Below, one piece after another: positions 16,805 to 59,552 of a stretch of 64,000 nucleotides of DNA. The notes under the pieces are model-generated. The model saw only the letters and a list, made by a program, of their open reading frames with translations, did not search any database and was not told where the DNA came from. The translations under genes were made by a program, and so were the position numbers. The stretch lies in NCBI GenBank assembly GCA_002011035.2, contig MTLY02000001.1, positions 437,342 to 501,341 on the forward strand, given 5' to 3'. Each line of letters starts with the position of its first letter. Positions within the stretch are counted from its first letter, which is position 1. Origin of the DNA: Candidatus Hecatella orcuttiae. Its GTDB lineage: Archaea; Thermoproteota; Bathyarchaeia; Hecatellales; Hecatellaceae.

Positions 16805-16890
16805 CCCGGGTTTTTTCAGGCACCAGCCCTAAAGCTCTTTAAGCCACTTGTCCTTCACTAAAAAGTTAAACAGTGAATGGGGAAAAGGCT

Positions 16891-17790
16891 ATGTGGAAGT
16901 TTGAGGCAGAGCAGAAAAAGTACAGGATAGGAAACGTGGAAGTGGGTGGTGTCCCCGGGGAAAGACCCACCGTCCTGGTAGGCTCCATTTTCCACCACAA
17001 ACACAGGGTCGTCCGAGACGAACAAAAGGGGGAATTCGACCGGAAGACGGCGGAGGCCCTGATAAACCTCCAGCATGAGTTCTCCGACAAGACAGGGAAC
17101 CCCTGCATGCTGGATGTGGTGGGTTCCACGCCTGAGGCCTTGGAGAAGTTCATCGACTTCGCCGCCGAAGTAAGCGACGGCCCCCTCCTGTTGGACGGGG
17201 TCTCGGAATCCGTCCGTTTACCTGTGCTGGACCACGTGAAGGCAGCGGGCCTGTCGGAGAGAATAGTCTACAACACCGTGTCCCCCCGAGCCTCAGAGGG
17301 GGAGCTGGAGAAAATAAAGGAAGCTGGAATCAAAAGCGCTGTGCTCCTCATCTGCCCCAAGGCGGGTTTCGGCTCCAAGGAAAGGGTGGCCACGGCCAAA
17401 GAGCTACTGAAAACGGTGAAGAAGGCCGGGGTGGAGAAACCTCTGATCGACACCTGCATCCTCGACGTTCCCACCCTCGGATTCGCCTGCCGAACCATCA
17501 CCCAGCTGAAAAATGAGCTGGGCGCGGTCATGGGAGGAGGAGCCCACAACGCCGTGGACACGTGGAGGGGCCTCCGGTCTAAGATGGGCCTGCCAGCCGT
17601 GAAGCCGGCGGAAGCTTCAGCCAACATCCTCATCGCCGCCGCGGGAGCCGACTTCATCCTCTACGGCCCTCTAGAAAACGCCGAGTACGTCTTCCCCACG
17701 GTGGCCATGGTGGACGCGGCCTTCGCCCAGCTTCGCATGGAGGAAGGCGTGAGGATAAGCCGGGAGCATCCTAAATACAGAATCGCCTAA
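16891..17790 (+). CDS. mtrH: Methyltetrahydro(methano)pterin methyltransferase, MtrH-like
   Basis: A 299- to 305-residue TIM-barrel protein of the MtrH family. Signatures are GGVPGERPTVLVGSIFH near the start, GNPCMLDVVGS, YNTVSPRASE, DTCILDVPTLG and MGGGAHNAVDTW. MtrH carries a methyl group between tetrahydromethanopterin and a corrinoid cofactor. Full Mtr has eight subunits, but none of the others is nearby, so this is an orphan MtrH as found in methylotrophic and bathyarchaeal lineages, where it may serve a soluble corrinoid protein. ATG at 16891 is preferred (GGGG about 8 bases upstream); GTG at 16873 is also in frame. Confidence 0.85.
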   Translation: MWKFEAEQKKYRIGNVEVGGVPGERPTVLVGSIFHHKHRVVRDEQKGEFDRKTAEALINLQHEFSDKTGNPCMLDVVGSTPEALEKFIDFAAEVSDGPLLLDGVSESVRLPVLDHVKAAGLSERIVYNTVSPRASEGELEKIKEAGIKSAVLLICPKAGFGSKERVATAKELLKTVKKAGVEKPLIDTCILDVPTLGFACRTITQLKNELGAVMGGGAHNAVDTWRGLRSKMGLPAVKPAEASANILIAAAGADFILYGPLENAEYVFPTVAMVDAAFAQLRMEEGVRISREHPKYRIA

Positions 17791-23136: not shown

Positions 23137-23727
23137 TCATTTTCCAAGTTCATTTTCAAGTTTTTCGACAAGCCGCAGATAGCGCTGGTGCAGGTTCACT
23201 CCGATTTTTTTCTCCGCTTCCTCAAATCTTCTCCGCAGCTGCTTTTTCTCAGCGTCGGGGATGAGGCGGTCGGCGACGGGGAAGATGAAGCTGTCTTCCT
23301 TGAAAATATGCTCGGTGAGAAGCCTGATGTAGCTTTGAAGGCTTTTCGCCAAGGCTTTCCTGGCAGGTGCGTCTCCTCCCTCATATTTTTGGAGACTTTT
23401 AGCCGCAGCCCGGATAAGCCGGCGTCCTTCTTCATGCTCTGAAAGCATAACTCCGATCTCCGCGGAGGGCATGACACCTATGTGCCCCACCGCCTCCACG
23501 GCGGAAAACCCGTGCTCCTGGAGGGCTGAGAACAGTACGTCCTCCTCCTTACCATGATGGCAGCGGTCGGCGAAAGTTCTGAGAAAGTCTAACGCATCCT
23601 TTAAAAGGGACGGCTGAACAGGCTCTCCCTCACTCAGCCTAGCAGCGGCTTTCTTCAACACCTCCAGCATCCTCTCTATGACCCGGTGCTCCTCCTCCAG
23701 AACCTCAACCAAAGATGAACCCGCCAA
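23137..23727 (-). CDS. Hemerythrin-domain protein
   Basis: A 196-residue four-helix protein. The di-iron ligands are visible as EEEHRVIERM, DRCHHGKEEDVLF, EHEEGRRLI and TEHIFKEDSFIFP. Such proteins bind O2 or NO, or sense oxidants and iron. The start is TTG. It shares its helix pattern with the hemerythrin protein at 24,641, and the cysteine-rich regulator lies between them, so all three probably answer the same stress. Confidence 0.85.
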   Translation of the reverse strand: MAGSSLVEVLEEEHRVIERMLEVLKKAAARLSEGEPVQPSLLKDALDFLRTFADRCHHGKEEDVLFSALQEHGFSAVEAVGHIGVMPSAEIGVMLSEHEEGRRLIRAAAKSLQKYEGGDAPARKALAKSLQSYIRLLTEHIFKEDSFIFPVADRLIPDAEKKQLRRRFEEAEKKIGVNLHQRYLRLVEKLENELGK

Positions 23728-24640: not shown

Positions 24641-25420
24641 ATGGACGAATATCTGAACATGGAGGTCAAGGAGGTTATCTCAAAATTTCCCGAGGCAGCG
24701 CGAGTGCTGGACGAATACAACATCGGATGCACCGTCTGCAACGCAGGGTCTTGCCTCCTAAAGGACATCGTGGAAATACACAGTCTATCTTCGGATGAAG
24801 AGCAAGAGCTGATGGCCAAACTTGCCAGAGTGGTCTATCCAGGCCGGGATGTGAAGGTGCTTGAGGTTGGAAGAAAACCTAAAGCTAAACCTGAGAGGGT
24901 GAAGTATTCCCCGCCCTTGAAAAAACTGGTGGACGAGCATTTGCTGATAAAAAGGTGGATAGCGCTGATACCCAAGCTGGCTGAAAGCTTGGACGTTAAC
25001 ACAGAAGAGGGGAGACAATTGGTCCTTCAAGGAGTTGATTTTATCCGCACCTATGCAGACCGGTATCACCACGCCAAGGAGGAGGAAGTTCTCTTCAAGT
25101 ACTTTGACGAAAACCTAGAAATCCTCAAGACCATGCACGCCGACCATGAAAAGGCGAGAAGCCATGTGAGGAGCATCCTTCAAGCTGTGGAGGAAAAAAA
25201 TGGAGAAGCCGTCAAGGAGCATCTAAACGCCTACAGGGAGTTGCTGACAGAGCACATCAAAAAAGAAGATGAGATCCTCTACCCTTGGATGGACAGGGGA
25301 CTCTCCCTAACTCAAGTGGGAGAGCTGTTTTCAAGATTCAACGAGTTGGAGGAGCAGTTTCAAACTGTCCCTGAAAAATATGAAGAGTTCATCCGAAAAC
25401 TGGAAGAAAAATTCAGGTAA
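24641..25420 (+). CDS. DUF1858-like domain fused to hemerythrin
   Basis: A 259-residue protein. The first 70 residues (KEVISKFPEAARVLDEYNIG, then CTVCNAGSC) match the DUF1858/ScdA N-terminal type of domain, associated with Fe-S repair and nitrosative stress. Residues 95-250 form a hemerythrin domain with VDEHLLIKRW, DRYHHAKEEEVLF, HADHEKARSHV and TEHIKKEDEILYPW, the iron ligands. It most likely binds O2 or NO and helps protect or repair Fe-S enzymes. The palindrome upstream suggests control by the divergent regulator; a half-length Fe-S-type protein follows. Confidence 0.8.
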   Translation: MDEYLNMEVKEVISKFPEAARVLDEYNIGCTVCNAGSCLLKDIVEIHSLSSDEEQELMAKLARVVYPGRDVKVLEVGRKPKAKPERVKYSPPLKKLVDEHLLIKRWIALIPKLAESLDVNTEEGRQLVLQGVDFIRTYADRYHHAKEEEVLFKYFDENLEILKTMHADHEKARSHVRSILQAVEEKNGEAVKEHLNAYRELLTEHIKKEDEILYPWMDRGLSLTQVGELFSRFNELEEQFQTVPEKYEEFIRKLEEKFR

Positions 25421-25443: not shown

Positions 25444-25911
25444 ATGGTGTTTGAAGGCTGTCCGGGTTCGCATACATTGGATTTGAGGGAAAAAGAAACC
25501 CGAGAAACAACCCCCACAGAAAAAGTTAGGTCTCAGCTTAGACAGTGGCCGATTCAGCTACACCTGATCTCGCCCACCGCGCCCTACTATCAGGGGGCGG
25601 ATGTGCTTCTGACGGCTGACTGCGTGGCTTACGCGTTGGGTAACTTCCACACCGACTACTTGAAGGGCAAGTCCATTGCCATCGCCTGCCCTAAGCTGGA
25701 CGAAGGCCAAGATGTCTACGTGGAGAAGATTAAGTCTTGGCTGGAAGATGCTAAGATAAACACTCTCTCGGTGTTGATCATGCAGGTTCCCTGCTGCATG
25801 GGATTGGTGAACCTAGCTCAGCAGGCTGCTGAACGTTCGAAGAGAAAAGTCCCCATCAAATCCATCATCGTCGGCATACAGGGCGACATCCTCTCAGAGG
25901 AGTGGGTGTGA
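25444..25911 (+). CDS. C-terminal half of a ferredoxin-type protein, ferredoxin domain absent
   Basis: A 155-residue protein equivalent to the C-terminal part of a known ~230-residue anaerobe ferredoxin-type family. It has FEGCPGSHT, the linker SQLRQWPIQLHLI, TADCVAYALGNFH, ACPKLDE and MQVPCCMGLVNLA. Family members usually begin with two 4Fe-4S motifs; here the protein begins at the point where that domain ends. An AAGGAGGTG ribosome-binding site (25430s) supports the ATG at 25444, so the short form looks deliberate. Its cysteines could still bind a cluster. It follows the hemerythrin gene by 23 bases. Confidence 0.7.
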   Translation: MVFEGCPGSHTLDLREKETRETTPTEKVRSQLRQWPIQLHLISPTAPYYQGADVLLTADCVAYALGNFHTDYLKGKSIAIACPKLDEGQDVYVEKIKSWLEDAKINTLSVLIMQVPCCMGLVNLAQQAAERSKRKVPIKSIIVGIQGDILSEEWV

Positions 25912-26063: not shown

Positions 26064-27620
26064 TTGGTCAACCTTAGAAAAAGCCTTTGGGGCAAAGGCT
26101 ACCAGCCCAAGCTGGTTCAAGTTCCCCAAACCGACTACAAAGAACTGGTGAGGGTGGGGCTGGACAGGTTCACCGAGAGCGCCGCCGGATTCGCGAAGCC
26201 GGTATACTTCATCGTAGCCTCAGTGGAGCTGGGGAACACCACCACCAAGTGCATCCTGACGGCCACCAACCTTCGGGAACAGAAGATCTACCTCCTGAAC
26301 AAAACCGTCCGGTTGACCAAGGAGATGAGAAGCCCCCTACCTGGGGAGGAGGTCTTTGGGGAGACCGTCTGGAAAAAAGAGCTCACCGTCAACGCGGTGA
26401 AGGAGTTCATCCGCGACACTCTCCTCCAGTGTTTGGAGGAGGCAAAAATAGACAAGGACAGAGACCTCCACTTCGTGGTAAGGTCCACCGGTGTGACCGC
26501 CGGTTTCGCCACGCCGGAGGAAGTGGGCGCCATGATCCACGCCTTGGCCCAAGGCTGTCTAGCTGCCGGCATCAGCTCCTCCAAGATGGTGGCCCCCCTG
26601 ACCAAGGAGCATGTCCCCAAGGAGCTCAGAGAATACTCGCTGCTGGACAAGGTGCCCTTCGACGGCTCTGTAGCCGGAAGCTTGCCGCCTCGAACCCCCG
26701 GCCAAGTTATCGCCAACGAAATGGAAGCCGAGCTGTCCACTGCTGGGTTGAAGATGGGAGCCCGCTGGATAGGCTTCGACTTCCGAAACCCGGTGGTGGC
26801 AATGGACTTCGGCACAACCCTGAAGGGTAGGATAACCGACAAGTCGTCTCCCTACGCTCAAACCGTGGGAAGCATAGCCGGCTTGGGCGGAGCTATACCC
26901 GACGCCCTCGTCCAAGGCGCCGGCCTCGTGGACGCTGAAAACGGCTCTGTCCTAGAAGCTCGGGCTGAGGAAGCCGGCGGGAGGAGGGTCTCAGGAGGCT
27001 GGGAAGACTGGGTGGAGGACGCCTTGAAACATCTGCGGATAATGGCGATTCCCCCTGACAGTTCAAGGTTTGGAACGGTTCCAGTGAACCCTAAGGCTGC
27101 TAGGGAGGCAGCCGTGTTCCTGATAGGCTGCGACATCGGAGTGAACGGGAGCAACATCCCCAAGCTCCGCAGGCTGGGGGAGAAAATCCGCCGAGAGCAA
27201 GGGCTCCCAGCCCTGTTTAGGGTGATAGACGCTCTCATGGCCCGGGTGGCCTCCCGCATCGTGGAGCTGGCCATGGAAGCGGGGCTGATAGGCGCTGATG
27301 TCTCCATAGGCCTCACCGGTCGGGCGGGCATAACAGGCGAGAAACCTCAGGCCTTCCTGAAGCTCGTTGACGATTTGGGGCTGTATCCTCGTGGAGCCGT
27401 AAGCGACCGGGTGGTGTTCGTGGAGGACGCCTTGGCCCTCGGAGCCGGAGTGATGAGCAGGTGCATGTTCAGCTTGGGCACGCCTAAGAAGCCTTTGGGG
27501 GGAAGACGGGGGGAACCCTGCATCCTAGCCAAGCGGATGAAATATTTGGAGAAGACAGCCGCCTGGACTCCCCAGCACCTCAAGGAACTGAAGACATCTC
27601 CAGCAGCCCGAGAAGAGTAG
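26064..27620 (+). CDS. Methanogenesis marker protein 14-like (ASKHA fold)
   Basis: A 518-residue protein of the acetate/sugar kinase-Hsc70-actin fold. VASVELGNTTTKC near residue 51 is the phosphate-1 loop; LHFVVRSTGV, AMDFGTTLKGR, VGSIAGLGGAIPDAL and IGLTGRAGITG follow. The pattern and length agree with methanogenesis marker 14, a protein found mainly in methanogens and relatives whose function is unproved. The next gene is another ASKHA protein that reactivates corrinoids, so a role in reductive activation is a reasonable idea. Start is TTG. Confidence 0.8.
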   Translation: MVNLRKSLWGKGYQPKLVQVPQTDYKELVRVGLDRFTESAAGFAKPVYFIVASVELGNTTTKCILTATNLREQKIYLLNKTVRLTKEMRSPLPGEEVFGETVWKKELTVNAVKEFIRDTLLQCLEEAKIDKDRDLHFVVRSTGVTAGFATPEEVGAMIHALAQGCLAAGISSSKMVAPLTKEHVPKELREYSLLDKVPFDGSVAGSLPPRTPGQVIANEMEAELSTAGLKMGARWIGFDFRNPVVAMDFGTTLKGRITDKSSPYAQTVGSIAGLGGAIPDALVQGAGLVDAENGSVLEARAEEAGGRRVSGGWEDWVEDALKHLRIMAIPPDSSRFGTVPVNPKAAREAAVFLIGCDIGVNGSNIPKLRRLGEKIRREQGLPALFRVIDALMARVASRIVELAMEAGLIGADVSIGLTGRAGITGEKPQAFLKLVDDLGLYPRGAVSDRVVFVEDALALGAGVMSRCMFSLGTPKKPLGGRRGEPCILAKRMKYLEKTAAWTPQHLKELKTSPAAREE

Positions 27621-27736
27621 GCCGGGACTTCAGCCTGCCCGGGGAACATTCCGCAACGTCCTCACGCCGGCTGGGAGTCAGGGAGACTAAACCTTAAAAA
27701 TTCTCAAGCACCTAGAGAGTCTAGCTTCCCTAGGCG

Positions 27737-29674
27737 GTGGAGATGACTTCATCCAACGTGGAAAATACTCGCCCCCCAAACAAGCATCTGGTTGTCTTCC
27801 AGCCCAGTGGGCGAAGAGAATATTTCAGTAGCTCGCAGACGCTGCTGGACGCTGCCAAAGAGCTGGGAGTGCCCATCGAAAGCGTGTGCGGCGGGGAGCG
27901 GTGGTGCGCCAAGTGCAAGGTCATCATCGAGAGAGGCATGGAAAACCTCTCCCCTCTCACTTTGGAGGAAAAGCAGCTTCTGAGGGATGAAGAGCTTAAC
28001 TCCAACTACAGGCTGGCTTGTTGCAGCGAGATAAGGGGGGATGTCGTTGCCCTCGTGCCCGAGGTCAGCAAGGCGGCGGTTCAGGTTGTCCGAAAGCCTG
28101 TTCGGGAGATCCCTGTAAAACTGGACCCCGCGGTGAAGAAATACTACGTGGAACTGAAGCCTCCAAGCCTTCAAGACCCCCTAGGCGACTTGGACAGGCT
28201 GCTAGAAGCTTTAAGGGACAGCTACGGCCTAGACGGCTTAAACATCGATTACTCCGTCCTCCGGGAGCTTCCCTCCACCTTGAGGGAGGGAAACTGGAAG
28301 GTCACGGTCACTGTTTGGGATTCCAGGGAAATCATCCGGGTGGAGCCCGGCTTGGTTAAGGAGGCCTACGGCTTAGCTGTGGACATAGGAACCACCACGG
28401 TGGTCGGCTATCTGCTGGAGCTCTCCACCGGAAAGCTGGTTTCGGTTTACTCCATGATGAACCCCCAAGTGCCGTTCGGGGAGGATGTCATGTCCCGGAT
28501 CAGCTACACCATCGCCAACCCCGACGGCTTAGAGAAGCTTCACTCGAAGATTCTCACGGGCATAAACCTCATCCTCCTCAACACGGCGAGGGATGCGGGG
28601 ATCACCTACGACGACATCTACGAAATTGTCCTCGTGGGAAACACCTGCATGCACCATCTCTTCCTAAAATTGGACCCCCAGTTTTTAGGCCGGTCTCCTT
28701 TCCCTCCCACAGTTCACAGGGCCGTTAACCTGAAACCCCGGGAGCTGGGCTTGAACATGTGGAAGGCGGGGAACGTTCACTTTCTCCCCGTGGAAGCCGG
28801 GTTCGTGGGGGCTGACAACGTGGGCGTGCTCATCACAGTGGAGCCTTGGAAAAAATCTGAGGTTCAACTCATCATCGACATCGGAACCAACGGGGAGCTG
28901 GTCTTGGGAAACAACACCCGGCTTCTCTCCGCCTCCTGCGCCACAGGGCCTGCCTTCGAGGGAGCCCACATGAAATATGGGATGAGGGCGGCTCCAGGGG
29001 CCATTGAGAGAGTCAAGATAGACCCAGACAGCATGGAGGTTGAATACGAAACCATCGAGGGCGAAAAGGCCCGGGGCATATGCGGCTCAGGCATCATCGA
29101 AGCCATGGCTGAAATGTTCAAGGCGGGAGTCATTCTGAAAAACGGAAACATCAACAAAGACCTCCGCAGCCCACGCCTGAGGCAGGGGGAAGACGGCTAC
29201 GAGTTCATTCTCGTCCCCAAGGAGGAAACGGCCATCGGAGCCGACATCGTCGTAACCCAGAAAGACGTGAGAGCCATCCAGCTGGCTAAGGGAGCCATGT
29301 ACACAGGGGCTAAAATCTTGATGAAGCACTTCGGCGTCCGGGAGCTGGATGAGGTTGTCTTGGCAGGGGCTTTCGGAAGCTACATCGACAGGGAAGCCTC
29401 CATGGCCATAGGCTTGTTCCCCGACTGCGACCTAGCCAAGGTGAAGGCGGTGGGGAACGCGGCGGGCGACGGGGCGAGGTTAGCTCTTCTCAGCAGGGAG
29501 AAAAGGGAAGAAGCCTATGAAGTTGCGAAGAAGGTGAAATATGTGGAATTGACCGTGGACCCTTCCTTCCAATCGGAGTTCATGAAGTCCATGTTTTTCC
29601 CCCACAAGGAGGACCCTTTCCCCCACCTCAACCACCTCTGGGATAACATGCCCAAACAGCAGGGAAAAGTTTAA
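27737..29674 (+). CDS. RACo-like ATP-dependent corrinoid reductive activator
   Basis: A 645-residue protein. The N-terminal 2Fe-2S domain has cysteines at C51, C57, C60 (CGGERWCAKC) and C95/C96 in LACCSE. A linker region follows to about residue 205. The ASKHA domain (DUF4445) starts with AVDIGTTTVVGYLLEL, then NTCMHHLFL, IDIGTNGELVLG, ICGSGIIEAMAEM and VVLAGAFGSYI. Such proteins use ATP to drive reduction of inactive Co(II) to Co(I) in corrinoid methyltransfer proteins. It stands directly before an MtaA-like methyltransferase, its likely functional partner. Confidence 0.88.
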   Translation: MEMTSSNVENTRPPNKHLVVFQPSGRREYFSSSQTLLDAAKELGVPIESVCGGERWCAKCKVIIERGMENLSPLTLEEKQLLRDEELNSNYRLACCSEIRGDVVALVPEVSKAAVQVVRKPVREIPVKLDPAVKKYYVELKPPSLQDPLGDLDRLLEALRDSYGLDGLNIDYSVLRELPSTLREGNWKVTVTVWDSREIIRVEPGLVKEAYGLAVDIGTTTVVGYLLELSTGKLVSVYSMMNPQVPFGEDVMSRISYTIANPDGLEKLHSKILTGINLILLNTARDAGITYDDIYEIVLVGNTCMHHLFLKLDPQFLGRSPFPPTVHRAVNLKPRELGLNMWKAGNVHFLPVEAGFVGADNVGVLITVEPWKKSEVQLIIDIGTNGELVLGNNTRLLSASCATGPAFEGAHMKYGMRAAPGAIERVKIDPDSMEVEYETIEGEKARGICGSGIIEAMAEMFKAGVILKNGNINKDLRSPRLRQGEDGYEFILVPKEETAIGADIVVTQKDVRAIQLAKGAMYTGAKILMKHFGVRELDEVVLAGAFGSYIDREASMAIGLFPDCDLAKVKAVGNAAGDGARLALLSREKREEAYEVAKKVKYVELTVDPSFQSEFMKSMFFPHKEDPFPHLNHLWDNMPKQQGKV

Positions 29675-29711
29675 ACAAAATTCGCGGAAAAGACATACCT
29701 GAGGCTTTCAG

Positions 29712-30779
29712 ATGAAACCCTACGACAGGGTTATGGCTGTCCTCCAAGGAAGAAGCGGGGAAGCAGATAGAATTCCCTGCGTAAACTTCACCTCCACAGC
29801 CACCCTCCAGTTCATGGAAGCCACAGGCGCATGGTGGCCTGAAGCCCACCGGGAGCCTGAAAAAATGGCTAAGCTGGGCTCCGCAGCCCACCGCCTCTGC
29901 GGCTTAGACAACGTCACCGTCCCCTTCGACATGGTTGTGGAAGCCGAACTGCTGGGTGCTCCTCCAGAGTTTTTCGAAGCTGAGAAGGCGGAAGGCGAAG
30001 TGAGGCAGCCCAGTGTCAAAGCTTTCGTGGTTAAGGAGCCTTCAGACCTGAAGATTCCCAGCGACGTCGCTTCGGCTGGGAGGCTGCCCGTGGTAGTTAA
30101 GGCTGTGAAAATTTTGAAGGAGGAGTTTGGAGGGAAAACCCCCGTCAACGTCTTCATGGTTCCCCCCTTCACATGCCTCTGCAACTACTTGGTGGACACT
30201 CTCACCTTTCTCAAAACCATGGTTAAGGAGCCTGAGAAGATCCGTAGCTTCCTAGACGCCAGCCTAGACCTTTTCATCCAGGAAGCCCGCGTCTACGAGG
30301 AGGCCGGCGCGGATGTCATCACCCTCCACGAGATGGGCGCCTGCTGCGGGGTCATAGCGCCCAGCCACTTCAAGGACTTTGTCGCCCCCTACCTGAAAAA
30401 ACTGGTCAAAAGCGTGAAATGCCCCACTGTGCTCAACATCTGCGGCCCCACGGAGAAGATTCTCCCCATGATGGTGGAATGCGGAGCCAACGCTGTGGCC
30501 ATCGATGAAACAACCCCCATCAAGGAGGCGAGGAGAATCGTCGACGCAGCGAAACCCGGCTATCCCATCGCCGGCAACATCTCCCCAAAAAAAATCCTGA
30601 GGGACGGAACCCCGGAAGTCATCGCTGGGGCGGTGAAGACGGTTATTGAGGAGGGAGTCAGCATCGTTTCCCCAGGCTGCGATTTCTTCTTGGACACGCC
30701 CATCGGAAACATCAAAACCTTCGTGGAGACTGTGGTGAAATTCGGCTCAGGAGGCGGAGGTCTCACCATAAATCCCTGA
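29712..30779 (+). CDS. MtaA/uroporphyrinogen decarboxylase-family methyltransferase
   Basis: A 355-residue TIM-barrel protein of the group that includes methylcobalamin:coenzyme M methyltransferases (MtaA, MtbA). YDRVMAVLQGR and RIPCVNF open the protein. The zinc site of MtaA is normally H-x-C plus a distant Cys; here the first ligand is Asn (N242 in VLNICG), with C244 and C322 (SPGCDFF) kept. So it may bind metal differently or use another thiol acceptor. It follows the activator gene by 37 bases. No corrinoid protein gene with a full B12 domain lies next to it. Confidence 0.8.
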   Translation: MKPYDRVMAVLQGRSGEADRIPCVNFTSTATLQFMEATGAWWPEAHREPEKMAKLGSAAHRLCGLDNVTVPFDMVVEAELLGAPPEFFEAEKAEGEVRQPSVKAFVVKEPSDLKIPSDVASAGRLPVVVKAVKILKEEFGGKTPVNVFMVPPFTCLCNYLVDTLTFLKTMVKEPEKIRSFLDASLDLFIQEARVYEEAGADVITLHEMGACCGVIAPSHFKDFVAPYLKKLVKSVKCPTVLNICGPTEKILPMMVECGANAVAIDETTPIKEARRIVDAAKPGYPIAGNISPKKILRDGTPEVIAGAVKTVIEEGVSIVSPGCDFFLDTPIGNIKTFVETVVKFGSGGGGLTINP

Positions 30780-31092: not shown

Positions 31093-31503
31093 CTAAGCTT
31101 CAAGCTGTTGTTTCACGTATTCAGCGTAGTCCTCCGCTTTCATGAGACTTTCCAGCTCTTTCAAGTCCTTAGGCTTCAGCCGGGCAATCCAGCCCTTGCC
31201 GTAGGGGTCTCGGTTGATGAGCTCCGGAGAGTCCTTCAAGGCTTCGTTGACTTCCACAACCCGGCCTGAGAGGGGACTGTAGACCTCCGCCACCGCCTTC
31301 ACCGACTCTAGGCTGCCCAGGGAATCCTTCTGCTTGACCTCCGCATCCTTCTCCGGCAGCTGGACGAAGACAACTTCGTGGAGCATTCTCTGAGCGTAGT
31401 CAGCAACGCCCACCCTTACCAAGCCGTCTTCCTCCAGCGAAGCCCACCCATGCTCCGCGGTGTAGTAGAGGTTTTCCCGCACTTCCACACTGTCAACCTT
31501 CAC
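31093..31503 (-). CDS. gcvH: Glycine cleavage system H protein
   Basis: A lipoyl-carrier protein. The lipoylated lysine is in SLESVKAVAEV near residue 68, and YTAEHGWASLEEDG, VGVADYAQRML, PLSGRVVEVNEAL and GKGWIARL are family motifs. GTG at 31503 is preferred to an upstream start: it follows a strong GGGAGGGG sequence and gives 136 residues, the usual length. No gcvT or gcvP is present. The gene is divergent from the lipoate synthesis and ligation genes, which would modify it. Confidence 0.92.
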   Translation of the reverse strand: MKVDSVEVRENLYYTAEHGWASLEEDGLVRVGVADYAQRMLHEVVFVQLPEKDAEVKQKDSLGSLESVKAVAEVYSPLSGRVVEVNEALKDSPELINRDPYGKGWIARLKPKDLKELESLMKAEDYAEYVKQQLEA

Positions 31504-31565
31504 AGCTTTCCCCTCCCATACCCAAGGAGCTGCCGAGAGGATAAGAAACACTTTAGGGGAGGTCC

Positions 31566-31623: not shown

Positions 31624-32643
31624 ATGGAGGGCGCCCCCGGGTTTATCAGGGTTTCCCGAGGCTCCGAGTTTACCCTAGGCCTGAAAAGGGGCTTCGCAAG
31701 CGTGAAGCCCACCGTGGCTTATCTTCTAACCCACCATCCCCAAGGATGCTTCGCCAACTGTGCCTTCTGCACCCAAGCGAGGAGCAGCGTCTCCCACGCT
31801 GACATGCTTTCCCGGGTAATCTGGCCTCTCCACCCCCTTCAAGCAGTGGTCCGAGGTCTGAGGCGGGCTGAGGCTGAAGGGGCTGTTAAGAGAATCTGCA
31901 TTCAAACCTTGAACTATCCCGGCATGTTCGCCGATGTCCTAAGCCTCCTGAGTGTTTTCAGAAAAGCCGTGGAGATGCCTGTTTCCCTCTCCTGCCAACC
32001 CTTGGAAGAGGAAGAAATTAGGCTTCTGAAGGAAGCCGGCTTAGACAGGCTTGTCTTCCCCTTGGACGCTGCCACCGAAGAGGTCTTCGAGAGGGTGAAG
32101 GGCAAGGGGGTGGGAAACCCCTTCACCCGAAGCGGGTGTCTCACCGCGTTGGAGAAGGCTGTGGAAATCTTCGGGCGAGGCAAGGTTGGAAGTTACTTGA
32201 TGGTGGGGTTGGGGGAAACGGAGCGGGAGGCTGTGGCCGCTGTTCAGGAGCTGAAAGACCTAGAAGTCTTCACCAGCCTCTTCGCCTTCACACCCATCCC
32301 CGGAACGGGGCTGGAGAACCAGCCTAAACCGTCTTTGGTAAGCTACAGGAAGATTCAGCTGGCCCACTTCCTCATCGAACGAGAACTGGCTAGGTTCGAA
32401 GACATGACCTTCACGGAAAAAAACAACCTAGCCGGCTTCGGCCTAAGCTACGACACGCTGAAGGACATCGTAGCCTCTGGGTTGCCCTTCCAAACTCGAG
32501 GCTGCGCAGGGTGCAACCGGCCCTACTACAACGAGGACCCTAAAGGGCCCTTCTACAATTATCCCCGCTCCTTAACGGCGGCGGAAGTTTCCGAAATTGC
32601 AGCGGCTTTGAAGCCCTACCTGAATGGGGAACTTAGAGGGTGA
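31624..32643 (+). CDS. Radical SAM protein, archaeal lipoyl synthase component (LipS1/LipS2 type)
   Basis: A 339-residue radical SAM enzyme. The cluster motif is C42-x3-C46-x2-C49 in GCFANCAFCT. A second cysteine pair near the C-terminus (GCAGCNRPYYN) could hold an auxiliary cluster that donates sulfur. Archaea that lack classic LipA make lipoyl groups with two radical SAM proteins, LipS1 and LipS2; this gene, with ligase genes directly after it and gcvH before it, fits one of the pair. Which of the two it is cannot be decided here. Confidence 0.75.
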   Translation: MEGAPGFIRVSRGSEFTLGLKRGFASVKPTVAYLLTHHPQGCFANCAFCTQARSSVSHADMLSRVIWPLHPLQAVVRGLRRAEAEGAVKRICIQTLNYPGMFADVLSLLSVFRKAVEMPVSLSCQPLEEEEIRLLKEAGLDRLVFPLDAATEEVFERVKGKGVGNPFTRSGCLTALEKAVEIFGRGKVGSYLMVGLGETEREAVAAVQELKDLEVFTSLFAFTPIPGTGLENQPKPSLVSYRKIQLAHFLIERELARFEDMTFTEKNNLAGFGLSYDTLKDIVASGLPFQTRGCAGCNRPYYNEDPKGPFYNYPRSLTAAEVSEIAAALKPYLNGELRG

Positions 32644-57473: not shown

Positions 57474-59552
57474 ATGGGAAAGGTATTAAAAGCTGGATTA
57501 GGCCTCCTCGTCGCCTTGATGATTTTCGGAGCCATAGGGGTCTTCCTCACACCTGAACCCACTCCGACCCCCATGCCCACCCCAGCTCCTGCGTTCACCC
57601 CTACACCAACCCCTACACCCCTACCAGAGGCGGCTGCCACGCCCACCCCGACGCCTACACCTACGCCTTCACCTTCTCCACCTGAGGAGGCCTTCAGCTA
57701 CGCCGTCTATTTCACACCCGACAGCCAAGTTGACGATTACCTTGTGTCGTTGATCGAGGGAGCTCAAAGCTCAGTTTACGCAGCCTTCTACGACCTCGAC
57801 CTAGTCAACGTGGGGGAGGCGCTTCTGGAGGCTGAAAAGAGGGGGGTCGACGTTAAGGTTGTAACCGACACCGACAACATGGCTAACCCTGAAATCGCTG
57901 AACTGGTTACTTCAGGCTTAGTGCGAGGAGACGACGACCCTGACTTCATGCACAACAAATTCATGGTAGTTGACGGAAGGCTTGTGTGGACGGGTTCGAT
58001 GAACCCCACGTTCAACGGCGTCCACAAAAACAACAACAACGTGGTGGTCATCTCAGGCCTGCCTCAGCTTGCCGAAAACTACGTGGACGAATTCACCGAG
58101 TTATGGAGCGGAGTCTTTGGAGGAGGTTCACCGGTTTTATACCCGGAGATAACTGTCTCAGACGAATTCATCATCGAAGTCTACTTTGCACCTGAAGACG
58201 ATGTGGAAAATCAGATCATCGAAGAGCTGCAGAAGGCCGAGGAAAGCATCTATTTTGCAGTCTTCACCTTCACCAGCAAACCCATAGGAAACGTCCTTCT
58301 AGAGAAACATAAGGAAGGCGTAACCGTCCAAGGCATATACGAAAGTTTTCAAGCTGGACAATACAGCACCTACTCGATGCTCAGGGAAGCAGGAGTGCCG
58401 GTGGTCAAGGACCGGAACCCTGCGGTGATGCACCACAAATTTTTTGTAATCGACAACCGAACCGTCATCACCGGGTCCTTCAACCCCACCAAACATGCTA
58501 ACCGAGACAACGACGAGAACATTCTGATCCTGCACAACTCGGCTGTGGCCAGCCTTTTCGCCTTGGAATTTAAGCAGATGTGGACTGAATGGTACACTCC
58601 ACCAAGCCCAGAGCTAGAGCCCAGTCCCAGCCGGGAACTTGTCGAATACGTCCTTACTCTCATCAACCGAGATAGAAGCGACCACGGGCTTCCCCCCGTG
58701 AAGCTGGGAACCAACCTCGCTGCCCAAGCACATGCCGAGGACATGCTGGAAAACCTGTACTTCTCCCACTGGGATATGAACGGAACCAAACCCTATGTGA
58801 GGTACACGCAACACGGCGGGTTGGGGTTTGTTTCCCAGAACATAGCCTTCTCGGGTTTCCTCTACGAGGAGCCCTTAGCCGCGCCCTTGGATGTCAGGGA
58901 AACCTTGGAGGAGCTGGAATACGGCATGATGTACGAGGATGCGGAATGGAACTGGGGACACAGGGACAACATACTGGGCCGGTGGCATACCCACGTAAAC
59001 ATCGGAATAGCCTACGACAGAACCCATGTGTTTCTGGTTCAAGACTTCGAAGACAACCACATCGTATGGACTCAGCCTCCCAGCTACGACGACGGAATCC
59101 TTTCGCTTGAAGGCACAACCCTGCTGGGGGAAGTGTACGTAATAGCCCTTTACTACGACCCTCCCCCGAGGCCTTTAACCCGGGAGCAACTGGCGGAGCC
59201 GCCGTACAGTGGAGGATACGGGCTGGGCGAGGAGGTTGGCTACATCCTTGAAAGCTCCTACTCCGTGGAGGGCTCAGCCTACGTTCACGCCTCCCAATGG
59301 GTGGTGGAAGACGGCTTCTTCGACATCGTCGCAGACATTAAACCGCTGATGACTCGGGGAGAAGGCTTCTACACTGTTGTAGTTTGGGCTGAAGTGGAAG
59401 ATGAGTACATCCCTTTAACCTGCTATTCGATACTCGTCGAATCCGCCGACACAGCCTCCACCCCGGCATCCAATATCAGCTTAACGATGAGGATGAAGCT
59501 AAACCTAGCCGAGATCAGCTTGACAGAGGATGGACTATCAACCGCATCTTAG
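57474..59552 (+). CDS. Secreted fusion of tandem PLD domains and a CAP domain
   Basis: A 692-residue exported protein. Residues 5-27 form an N-terminal membrane or signal helix, followed by a Pro/Thr-rich linker to about residue 75 that could be glycosylated. Two phospholipase D-type domains each have an HKD motif: HNKFMVVDGRLVWTGSMN near 160 and HHKFFVIDNRTVITGSFN near 320. A CAP/SCP domain (about 390-530) has INRDRSDHGLPP, AQAHAEDML, FSHW and GHRDNIL. The last 160 residues are beta-rich and of unknown role. It probably acts on lipids, nucleic acids or cell-wall material outside the cell. Confidence 0.8.
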   Translation: MGKVLKAGLGLLVALMIFGAIGVFLTPEPTPTPMPTPAPAFTPTPTPTPLPEAAATPTPTPTPTPSPSPPEEAFSYAVYFTPDSQVDDYLVSLIEGAQSSVYAAFYDLDLVNVGEALLEAEKRGVDVKVVTDTDNMANPEIAELVTSGLVRGDDDPDFMHNKFMVVDGRLVWTGSMNPTFNGVHKNNNNVVVISGLPQLAENYVDEFTELWSGVFGGGSPVLYPEITVSDEFIIEVYFAPEDDVENQIIEELQKAEESIYFAVFTFTSKPIGNVLLEKHKEGVTVQGIYESFQAGQYSTYSMLREAGVPVVKDRNPAVMHHKFFVIDNRTVITGSFNPTKHANRDNDENILILHNSAVASLFALEFKQMWTEWYTPPSPELEPSPSRELVEYVLTLINRDRSDHGLPPVKLGTNLAAQAHAEDMLENLYFSHWDMNGTKPYVRYTQHGGLGFVSQNIAFSGFLYEEPLAAPLDVRETLEELEYGMMYEDAEWNWGHRDNILGRWHTHVNIGIAYDRTHVFLVQDFEDNHIVWTQPPSYDDGILSLEGTTLLGEVYVIALYYDPPPRPLTREQLAEPPYSGGYGLGEEVGYILESSYSVEGSAYVHASQWVVEDGFFDIVADIKPLMTRGEGFYTVVVWAEVEDEYIPLTCYSILVESADTASTPASNISLTMRMKLNLAEISLTEDGLSTAS

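Follow-up and report, generated by a model that had tools for sequence, protein, structure and literature searches.

The sodium-pumping methyl-transfer step of methanogenesis is carried out by the Mtr complex, whose corrinoid works as Co(I) and requires rescue when it is oxidised. A December 2025 paper on the structure of Mtr calls the corrinoid-activating enzyme uncharacterised (PMC12774963). Among passages of the earlier literature, Borrel et al. 2014 (PMC4153887) linked methanogenesis marker 14 (MM14; DUF2114, arCOG04866) to Mtr, and Adam et al. 2022 (PMC9635834) wrote of a marker termed m26 that it 'is tied to Mtr' and that it persists in Thorarchaeia and in the o__B25 Bathyarchaeia. From this stated distribution, m26 is probably MM14. 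The link between MM14 and Mtr is already in print and is not new; no publication naming MM14 as an MtrA activase was found in the open-access literature, supplements not being covered. Here we describe the MM14 gene in a 64,000-nucleotide stretch (the window) of the archaeon Candidatus Hecatella orcuttiae (contig MTLY02000001.1, positions 437,342 to 501,341). New in this work are the ASKHA fold of the protein, the narrowing of its association to MtrA and MtrH, a soluble cluster of the methionine type, a test based on MM7, and the adjacency of the gene to that for RACo, a corrinoid reductive activator. The gene under study is the following.

26064..27620, + strand: methanogenesis marker 14 (MM14; DUF2114, arCOG04866), with PF09887 and TIGR03285 scores and a predicted ASKHA fold; proposed ATP-dependent activator of MtrA

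We propose that MM14 is an ASKHA-family ATPase that acts as an ATP-dependent activator, or reactivator, of the MtrA corrinoid, and that it stands here beside the sole RACo of a genome with a complete Mtr and without methyl-coenzyme M reductase (MCR). We judge this proposal to have about an even chance of being correct. The window gene belongs by score to the published family, for which we see the same linkage to Mtr; here, however, it resides in a genome without MCR and adjoins RACo rather than mtrH.

Membership in the family is clear. An earlier note on this DNA, made from the sequence alone, had taken the gene at 26,064 for marker 14 and named assignment to a different family as what would overturn this. 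The profile search confirms the identification, with 572 bits for TIGR03285 methan_mark_14 (cut-off 274; model positions 1-445 of 446) and 613 bits for PF09887 (cut-off 25). The closest relatives belong to the Hecatellales of Bathyarchaeia, at 61-64% identity. Residues C165, C467 and C486 are invariant in all 39 non-redundant homologues, and the loop ELGNTTTK at residues 55-62 as well as D248, G250 and T252 are invariant or nearly so, as expected for the phosphate loops of an ASKHA protein; the names of the phosphate-binding motifs that we give to these loops are presumed ones.

The host genome, which is 97% complete, carries no McrA, and two methanogen controls were positive in the same search. 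The remark in the earlier note that no mcr genes were visible in the window holds genome-wide. A complete operon with the order mtrE, D, C, B, A, G, H lies on another contig, where MM14 does not follow. This combination matches a description of the Hecatellales as having complete Mtr without MCR, given in part of PMC9635834, and the 'Family-2' lineage described in a portion of PMC8407382 seems to be the same group. In the Hecatellales locus L022 MM14 closes the series mtrE-D-C-B-A-G-H-MM14, 67 nucleotides behind mtrH, and the MM14 gene of a second member (G301, locus L116), which is cut, also follows mtrH. Other neighbours of MM14 in sister Hecatellales are ABC-transporter-like genes. Since MM14 stands behind mtrH in these relatives, the window gene appears, from gene order, to have moved from the mtr operon, and its place behind mtrH was probably exchanged for one at the side of RACo.

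The same arrangement recurs across the archaea. Our search found 133 MM14 relatives, of which 80 loci were kept, and the neighbourhood count used 85 of 86 sets, the MM14 open reading frame (ORF) of L036 having been missed by the ORF chooser. The locus groups are coarse: 'Methanobacteriales' is a default bin, the labels 'Nezhaarchaea-type', 'ANME-1-like' and 'Methanococcales-type' were assigned by eye or from the titles of records, and L071 and L073 make up the two 'Methanopyri' rows. In all eight Thorarchaeota loci MM14 comes directly after mtrH, in the order mtrH-mtrA-mtrH-MM14. It does so too in six of seven Nezhaarchaea-type loci, of which the seventh is cut and two pairs seem to come from identical genomes, and in L061. 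Within the default bin it does so in 36 of 56 loci, has mtrH a few genes away in 7, and has no mtrH nearby in 13, most of which have a contig end close upstream. Among the 196 genomes of the phylum of Methanocella, distances between the starts of MM14 and MtrA were measured in 38; in each of these both genes are on one contig and at most 11.6 kb apart, and in 28 the distance is within 5 kb. In the survey of neighbours, which the earlier note had suggested, RACo was seen beside MM14 in this genome only.

Two further features of these loci deserve mention. In the Thorarchaeota mtrHAH cluster, MM14 is followed by genes for an F420 gamma-glutamyl ligase and for a protein of nickel insertion, PF01969 (L082, 11349-13836; families checked on L082 only). 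Second, more divergent MM14 copies occur in G337, G461 and G466 (L149, L150 and L151), in addition to the standard one. They share about 39-45% identity with the Methanocella copy, and near them neither an mtr gene nor any other match to the small reference set was found.

Phylogenetic distribution suggests that MM14 is tied to MtrA and not to MCR. Among 20 searched carriers of MM14, MtrA is present in every one and McrA in 7; G103 and G303, like G222 and G302, share the same coordinates, each pair probably being a single genome entered twice, in which case the figures would be 18 carriers, 6 with McrA. The name 'marker' in the sense of a gene confined to MCR-bearing organisms does not apply, as McrA is missing from the genome studied here and from 13 of the 20. 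Across 300 genomes of the same phylum, MM14 occurs in six, which are exactly those with the six best MtrA scores (219-235 bits), some MtrA match is found in 67 and McrA in 27. Of these 27, 24 are without MM14, and 23 of the 24 are also without MtrA. The 196 genomes of the Methanocella phylum give 119 with both MM14 and MtrA, 5 and 4 discordant, and 68 with neither (phi 0.90), compared with 97, 27, 8 and 64 for MM14 and McrA (phi 0.65); G432, whose McrA is below the cut-off, is not counted among the 105 McrA carriers. All 25 MtrA carriers of that phylum that are without McrA have MM14.

A reduced gene set narrows this association. In small McrA-less genomes of the Methanocella phylum, a core methionine synthase clusters with soluble MtrA, MtrH, MM14 and at least one further ORF, as identified by Pfam in L118 (G320; synthase PF01717, with NF002119 at 328 bits against 258), by BLAST in L142 (G340) and L143 (G396), and by eye for the synthase in L117 (G372). 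No Mtr membrane subunit lies beside MM14 in these four loci. With neither membrane subunits nor MCR in the reduced set, MM14 therefore goes with the MtrA-MtrH pair. Price and Arkin's group predicted, in a passage of PMC7857596, that MtrA donates the methyl group to the methionine synthase MesA.

These distributions also bear on the possibility that MM14 takes part in the activation of the nickel enzyme MCR. The name it first received was that of a methanogenesis marker, according to part of PMC3226654, and like MM14 the MCR activation complex (McrC, Mmp3, Mmp7, Mmp17 and A2) holds such markers, two of which, MM17 and MM7, form a string with MM14 in the ANME-1-like group. However, MM14 is not a named component of that complex, and the portion of PMC12176620 on its purified components contains no occurrence of Mmp14. 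MM7 is missing from all 15 McrA-less carriers of MM14 and present in four of four carriers with McrA, so that MM14 does not co-occur with McrA and MM7 as a part of the complex would. With MM14 retained where both are missing, and missing itself from most McrA genomes of its own phylum, we reject a role in MCR activation as largely refuted and extremely improbable. The earlier note had left open a 'nickel or cobalt' cofactor enzyme; because MM14 is kept without McrA and MM7 and is missing where MCR in its own phylum stands without MtrA, this narrows to cobalt, that is, to MtrA. As a separate observation on these loci, MM17 and MM7 adjoin MM14 or mtrE in L133-L136, L144 and L145, which are ANME-1-like and related, and genes for MCR activation there cluster with the mtr operon.

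The predicted structure of MM14 (AlphaFold2; pLDDT 83.6, pTM 0.85) is a two-lobed ASKHA fold. In the structural comparison, 958 of 997 aligned chains reach Z >= 8, the best at 16.7, and the top rows are ASKHA proteins. This agrees, as far as MM14 is concerned, with the description of the window as holding 'two ASKHA proteins' in the earlier note. RACo in complex with its corrinoid protein (4c1n_K) ranks 12 in the Foldseek list (E 1.4e-5), and RACo 3zyy_Y is also among the matches. Reductive activators score Z 15.1 (4ehu), 14.8 (1hux) and 15.9 (the benzoyl-CoA reductase subunit 9gai_O), level with kinases. As activators are not at the top of the list, the fold supports 'ASKHA' and not 'activator'. 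A profile search of solved structures with MM14, made to look for a distant sequence kinship, gave no matches up to E 1.

Compared with the two known kinds of ASKHA activator, MM14 has a mixed character. With RACo and RamA it shares the fold and the proposed action on a corrinoid protein, but it has no Pfam domain of RACo (the middle, C-terminal and N-terminal [2Fe-2S] domains are absent, DUF2114 being the sole Pfam match), and no sequence relative was found among solved structures. The activators of the HgdC/BadF type (1hux, 4ehu and 9gai) resemble it in having the ASKHA fold without a ferredoxin domain, as aligned over about 243-250 residues, whereas MM14 is about twice as long.

If MM14 is an activator of MtrA, the following mechanism can be envisaged. 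MtrA corrinoid that has been accidentally oxidised to Co(II) would be returned by MM14 to active Co(I), with MtrA as the direct substrate. Hydrolysis of ATP would drive a domain movement by which a low-potential electron reaches the cobamide, in the manner of RACo and RamA with other corrinoid proteins. The electron might come from a partner protein or from a cluster bound by the three invariant cysteines. ATP-driven action of MM14 on the MtrA corrinoid could proceed by such electron transfer or by exchange of the cofactor.

Exchange of the cofactor forms the core of one alternative, in which MM14 is a chaperone of MtrA that uses ATP to assist folding, load the cobamide or remove a damaged one, and transfers no electron. 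The diol dehydratase reactivases are ASKHA-type chaperones of this kind. Both the linkage to mtr genes and the co-occurrence with MtrA fit such a role equally well, MM14 has no Fe-S domain, and EutJ (3h1q) and DnaK are among its Foldseek matches. Conversely, three cysteines that are invariant in every homologue have no obvious purpose in a pure chaperone, and Mtr is stated to require reductive activation (PMC12774963). We consider the chaperone role unlikely.

Another alternative is that MM14 acts elsewhere in the Mtr pathway, whether in assembling the complex, in controlling MtrH or in a modification of the kinase type. The position of MM14 immediately behind mtrH in Thorarchaeota, Nezhaarchaea and the Hecatellales locus L022 would suit such a role, as would the sugar-kinase-like ASKHA proteins among its best structural matches. 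Assembly of a membrane complex is nevertheless hard to reconcile with the loci in which only MtrA and MtrH adjoin MM14 (the four reduced sets and those of Thorarchaeota), and a role of this type seems quite improbable.

Several observations weigh against activation of MtrA by MM14. By Pfam scan and sequence inspection, the protein lacks a CxxC motif and any domain of the [2Fe-2S] or ferredoxin type. ASKHA is a broad fold that covers kinases, chaperones and actins, and the top structural matches are the putative sugar kinase MK0840, CoaX and AnmK, which are not activators and lie within about 2 Z of the reductive ones. MM14 is away from mtr genes in the Methanococcales-type loci (0 of 8 linked) and in L122, L125, L126 and L127, and in four ANME-1-like loci it is divergent from mtrE, with the MCR-activation parts MM17 and MM7 behind it. 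Five of the 196 Methanocella-phylum genomes have MM14 without detected MtrA (G358, G360, G395, G416 and G483), and in four of these the MM14 contigs measure 5-19 kb. True counter-examples in the opposite direction are the MtrA-MtrH pairs without MM14 in G109 (183 bits) and G022 (167 bits). The four genomes of the 196 that hold MtrA without MM14 have a contig edge beside MtrA (G353 and G375) or a weaker MtrA (G339 and G460).

In a tree of MtrA, sequences from MM14-less genomes fall on long branches. The MM14-less rows require four label changes, and since the AU test does not reject a single clade of them (p-AU 0.133), we take the tree as no more than supportive. It contains the 35 of 70 rows kept at 80% identity, a step that removed the MM14-less L138. 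In another MM14-less genome of the same class (G160, L137 4464-5393), two GcvH-like ORFs, recognised by eye, directly adjoin an MtrA-like gene.

In sum of these considerations, the suggestion in the earlier note that marker 14 works as a reductive activator is plausible and gains support from mtr linkage, co-occurrence with MtrA and the ASKHA fold; its own argument, from the position next to RACo, which was seen in one genome, contributes little. If activation of MtrA is correct, a protein that occurs throughout Mtr-dependent methanogens and has had no known function would gain a testable role at an open step. The MCR-less archaea would then reveal MtrA and MM14 at work outside methane metabolism, with methyl groups of the Wood-Ljungdahl pathway or in methionine synthesis. 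A wider and more tentative picture, which we rate at somewhat below an even chance, is that MM14, as reductive activase of MtrA, adds a third ASKHA type to RACo/RamA and HgdC, one independent of MCR. It would have been kept with MtrA and MtrH after the loss of MCR, down to the soluble methionine-synthase set, and moved in this genome beside RACo, perhaps because the [2Fe-2S] domain of the latter supplies electrons to both.

The surroundings of MM14 in the window are as follows.

16873..17790, + strand: paralogue of the MtrH family, distinct from the MtrH in the Mtr complex (TIGR01114, 235 bits, cut-off 271)
27737..29674, + strand: reductive activator of corrinoid proteins, RACo type, carrying an N-terminal [2Fe-2S] domain (Fer2, with the linker, middle and C-terminal domains of RACo)
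29712..30779, + strand: URO-D / MtaA-CmuA-subfamily methyltransferase-like protein (PRK06252 and TIGR01463 passed)

The gene at 27737-29674 is the only RACo of the genome. Its product matches solved RACo (3zyy) with 420 bits and has the motif CxxxxxCxxC at residues 51-60; against NF040756, the model for AcsV, an equivalent of RACo, it scores 501.5 bits, below the cut-off of 800. The protein encoded at 29712-30779 exceeds the subfamily cut-offs of PRK06252 (285 against 244) and TIGR01463 (245 against 235) and falls below that of the MtaA equivalog NF040654 (269 against 400 bits). Its VLNICG aligns with VLHICG of MtaA (4ay7), so that Asn replaces the His of an HxC motif while both Cys are retained. 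We take the zinc ligands of MtaA to be His-x-Cys and a distal Cys, and because of this replacement at the presumed zinc site we do not classify the protein as MtaA.

As the earlier note had it, MM14, RACo and the MtaA-like gene run in one direction; all lie on the + strand, with 152 nucleotides before MM14, 116 between MM14 and RACo, and 37 between RACo and the MtaA-like gene. The 116-nucleotide gap may be compatible with a shared transcript or with separate ones. The note also placed an orphan MtrH 9 kb upstream. An MtrH-family gene is indeed found there, 8.3 kb from MM14, but at 235 bits it is below the MtrH equivalog cut-off, and the canonical mtrH, in the mtr operon on the other contig, reaches 406 bits with the same model. 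This paralogue probably does not belong to one unit with the other three genes.

The earlier note read the three genes as a corrinoid methyl-transfer module, and MM14 might accordingly be thought to activate an enzyme belonging to it. A shared strand and short gaps speak for a dedicated unit, and with a single-copy RACo the prior for chance adjacency is roughly 1 in 1000 (an estimate from about 1,800 genes). Nonetheless, 'module' is too strong a term because no corrinoid protein is encoded among the three genes, and the MtaA-like protein, being without the zinc His, also scores below the equivalog cut-off for MtaA. The arrangement was seen in one genome and does not appear in the sister Hecatellales loci seen, for which reason we down-weighted the adjacency to RACo as main evidence. 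We therefore regard a dedicated module as very unlikely. No corrinoid protein of the MtbC type was found in the window, whose two B12-binding matches are long frames of 514 and 521 amino acids; the one that was scanned is a radical SAM/B12 protein. The whole genome has 22 B12-binding matches, many of them in frames of about 215-245 amino acids.

Other genes of the window can be noted briefly. Just downstream of the MtaA-like gene are a GcvH-like ORF (31093-31551, - strand), read by eye, and a lipoyl synthase of the LipS2 family (31624-32643, + strand; 313 bits against 270). Upstream of MM14 lie two related genes, at 23137-23727 (- strand) and 24641-25420 (+ strand), the second of which encodes a hemerythrin-domain protein. 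It is followed by an ORF of 155 amino acids (25444-25911) with no Pfam or NCBIfam match. Farther along, at 57474-59552, a protein of 692 amino acids combines phospholipase D-like and CAP domains.

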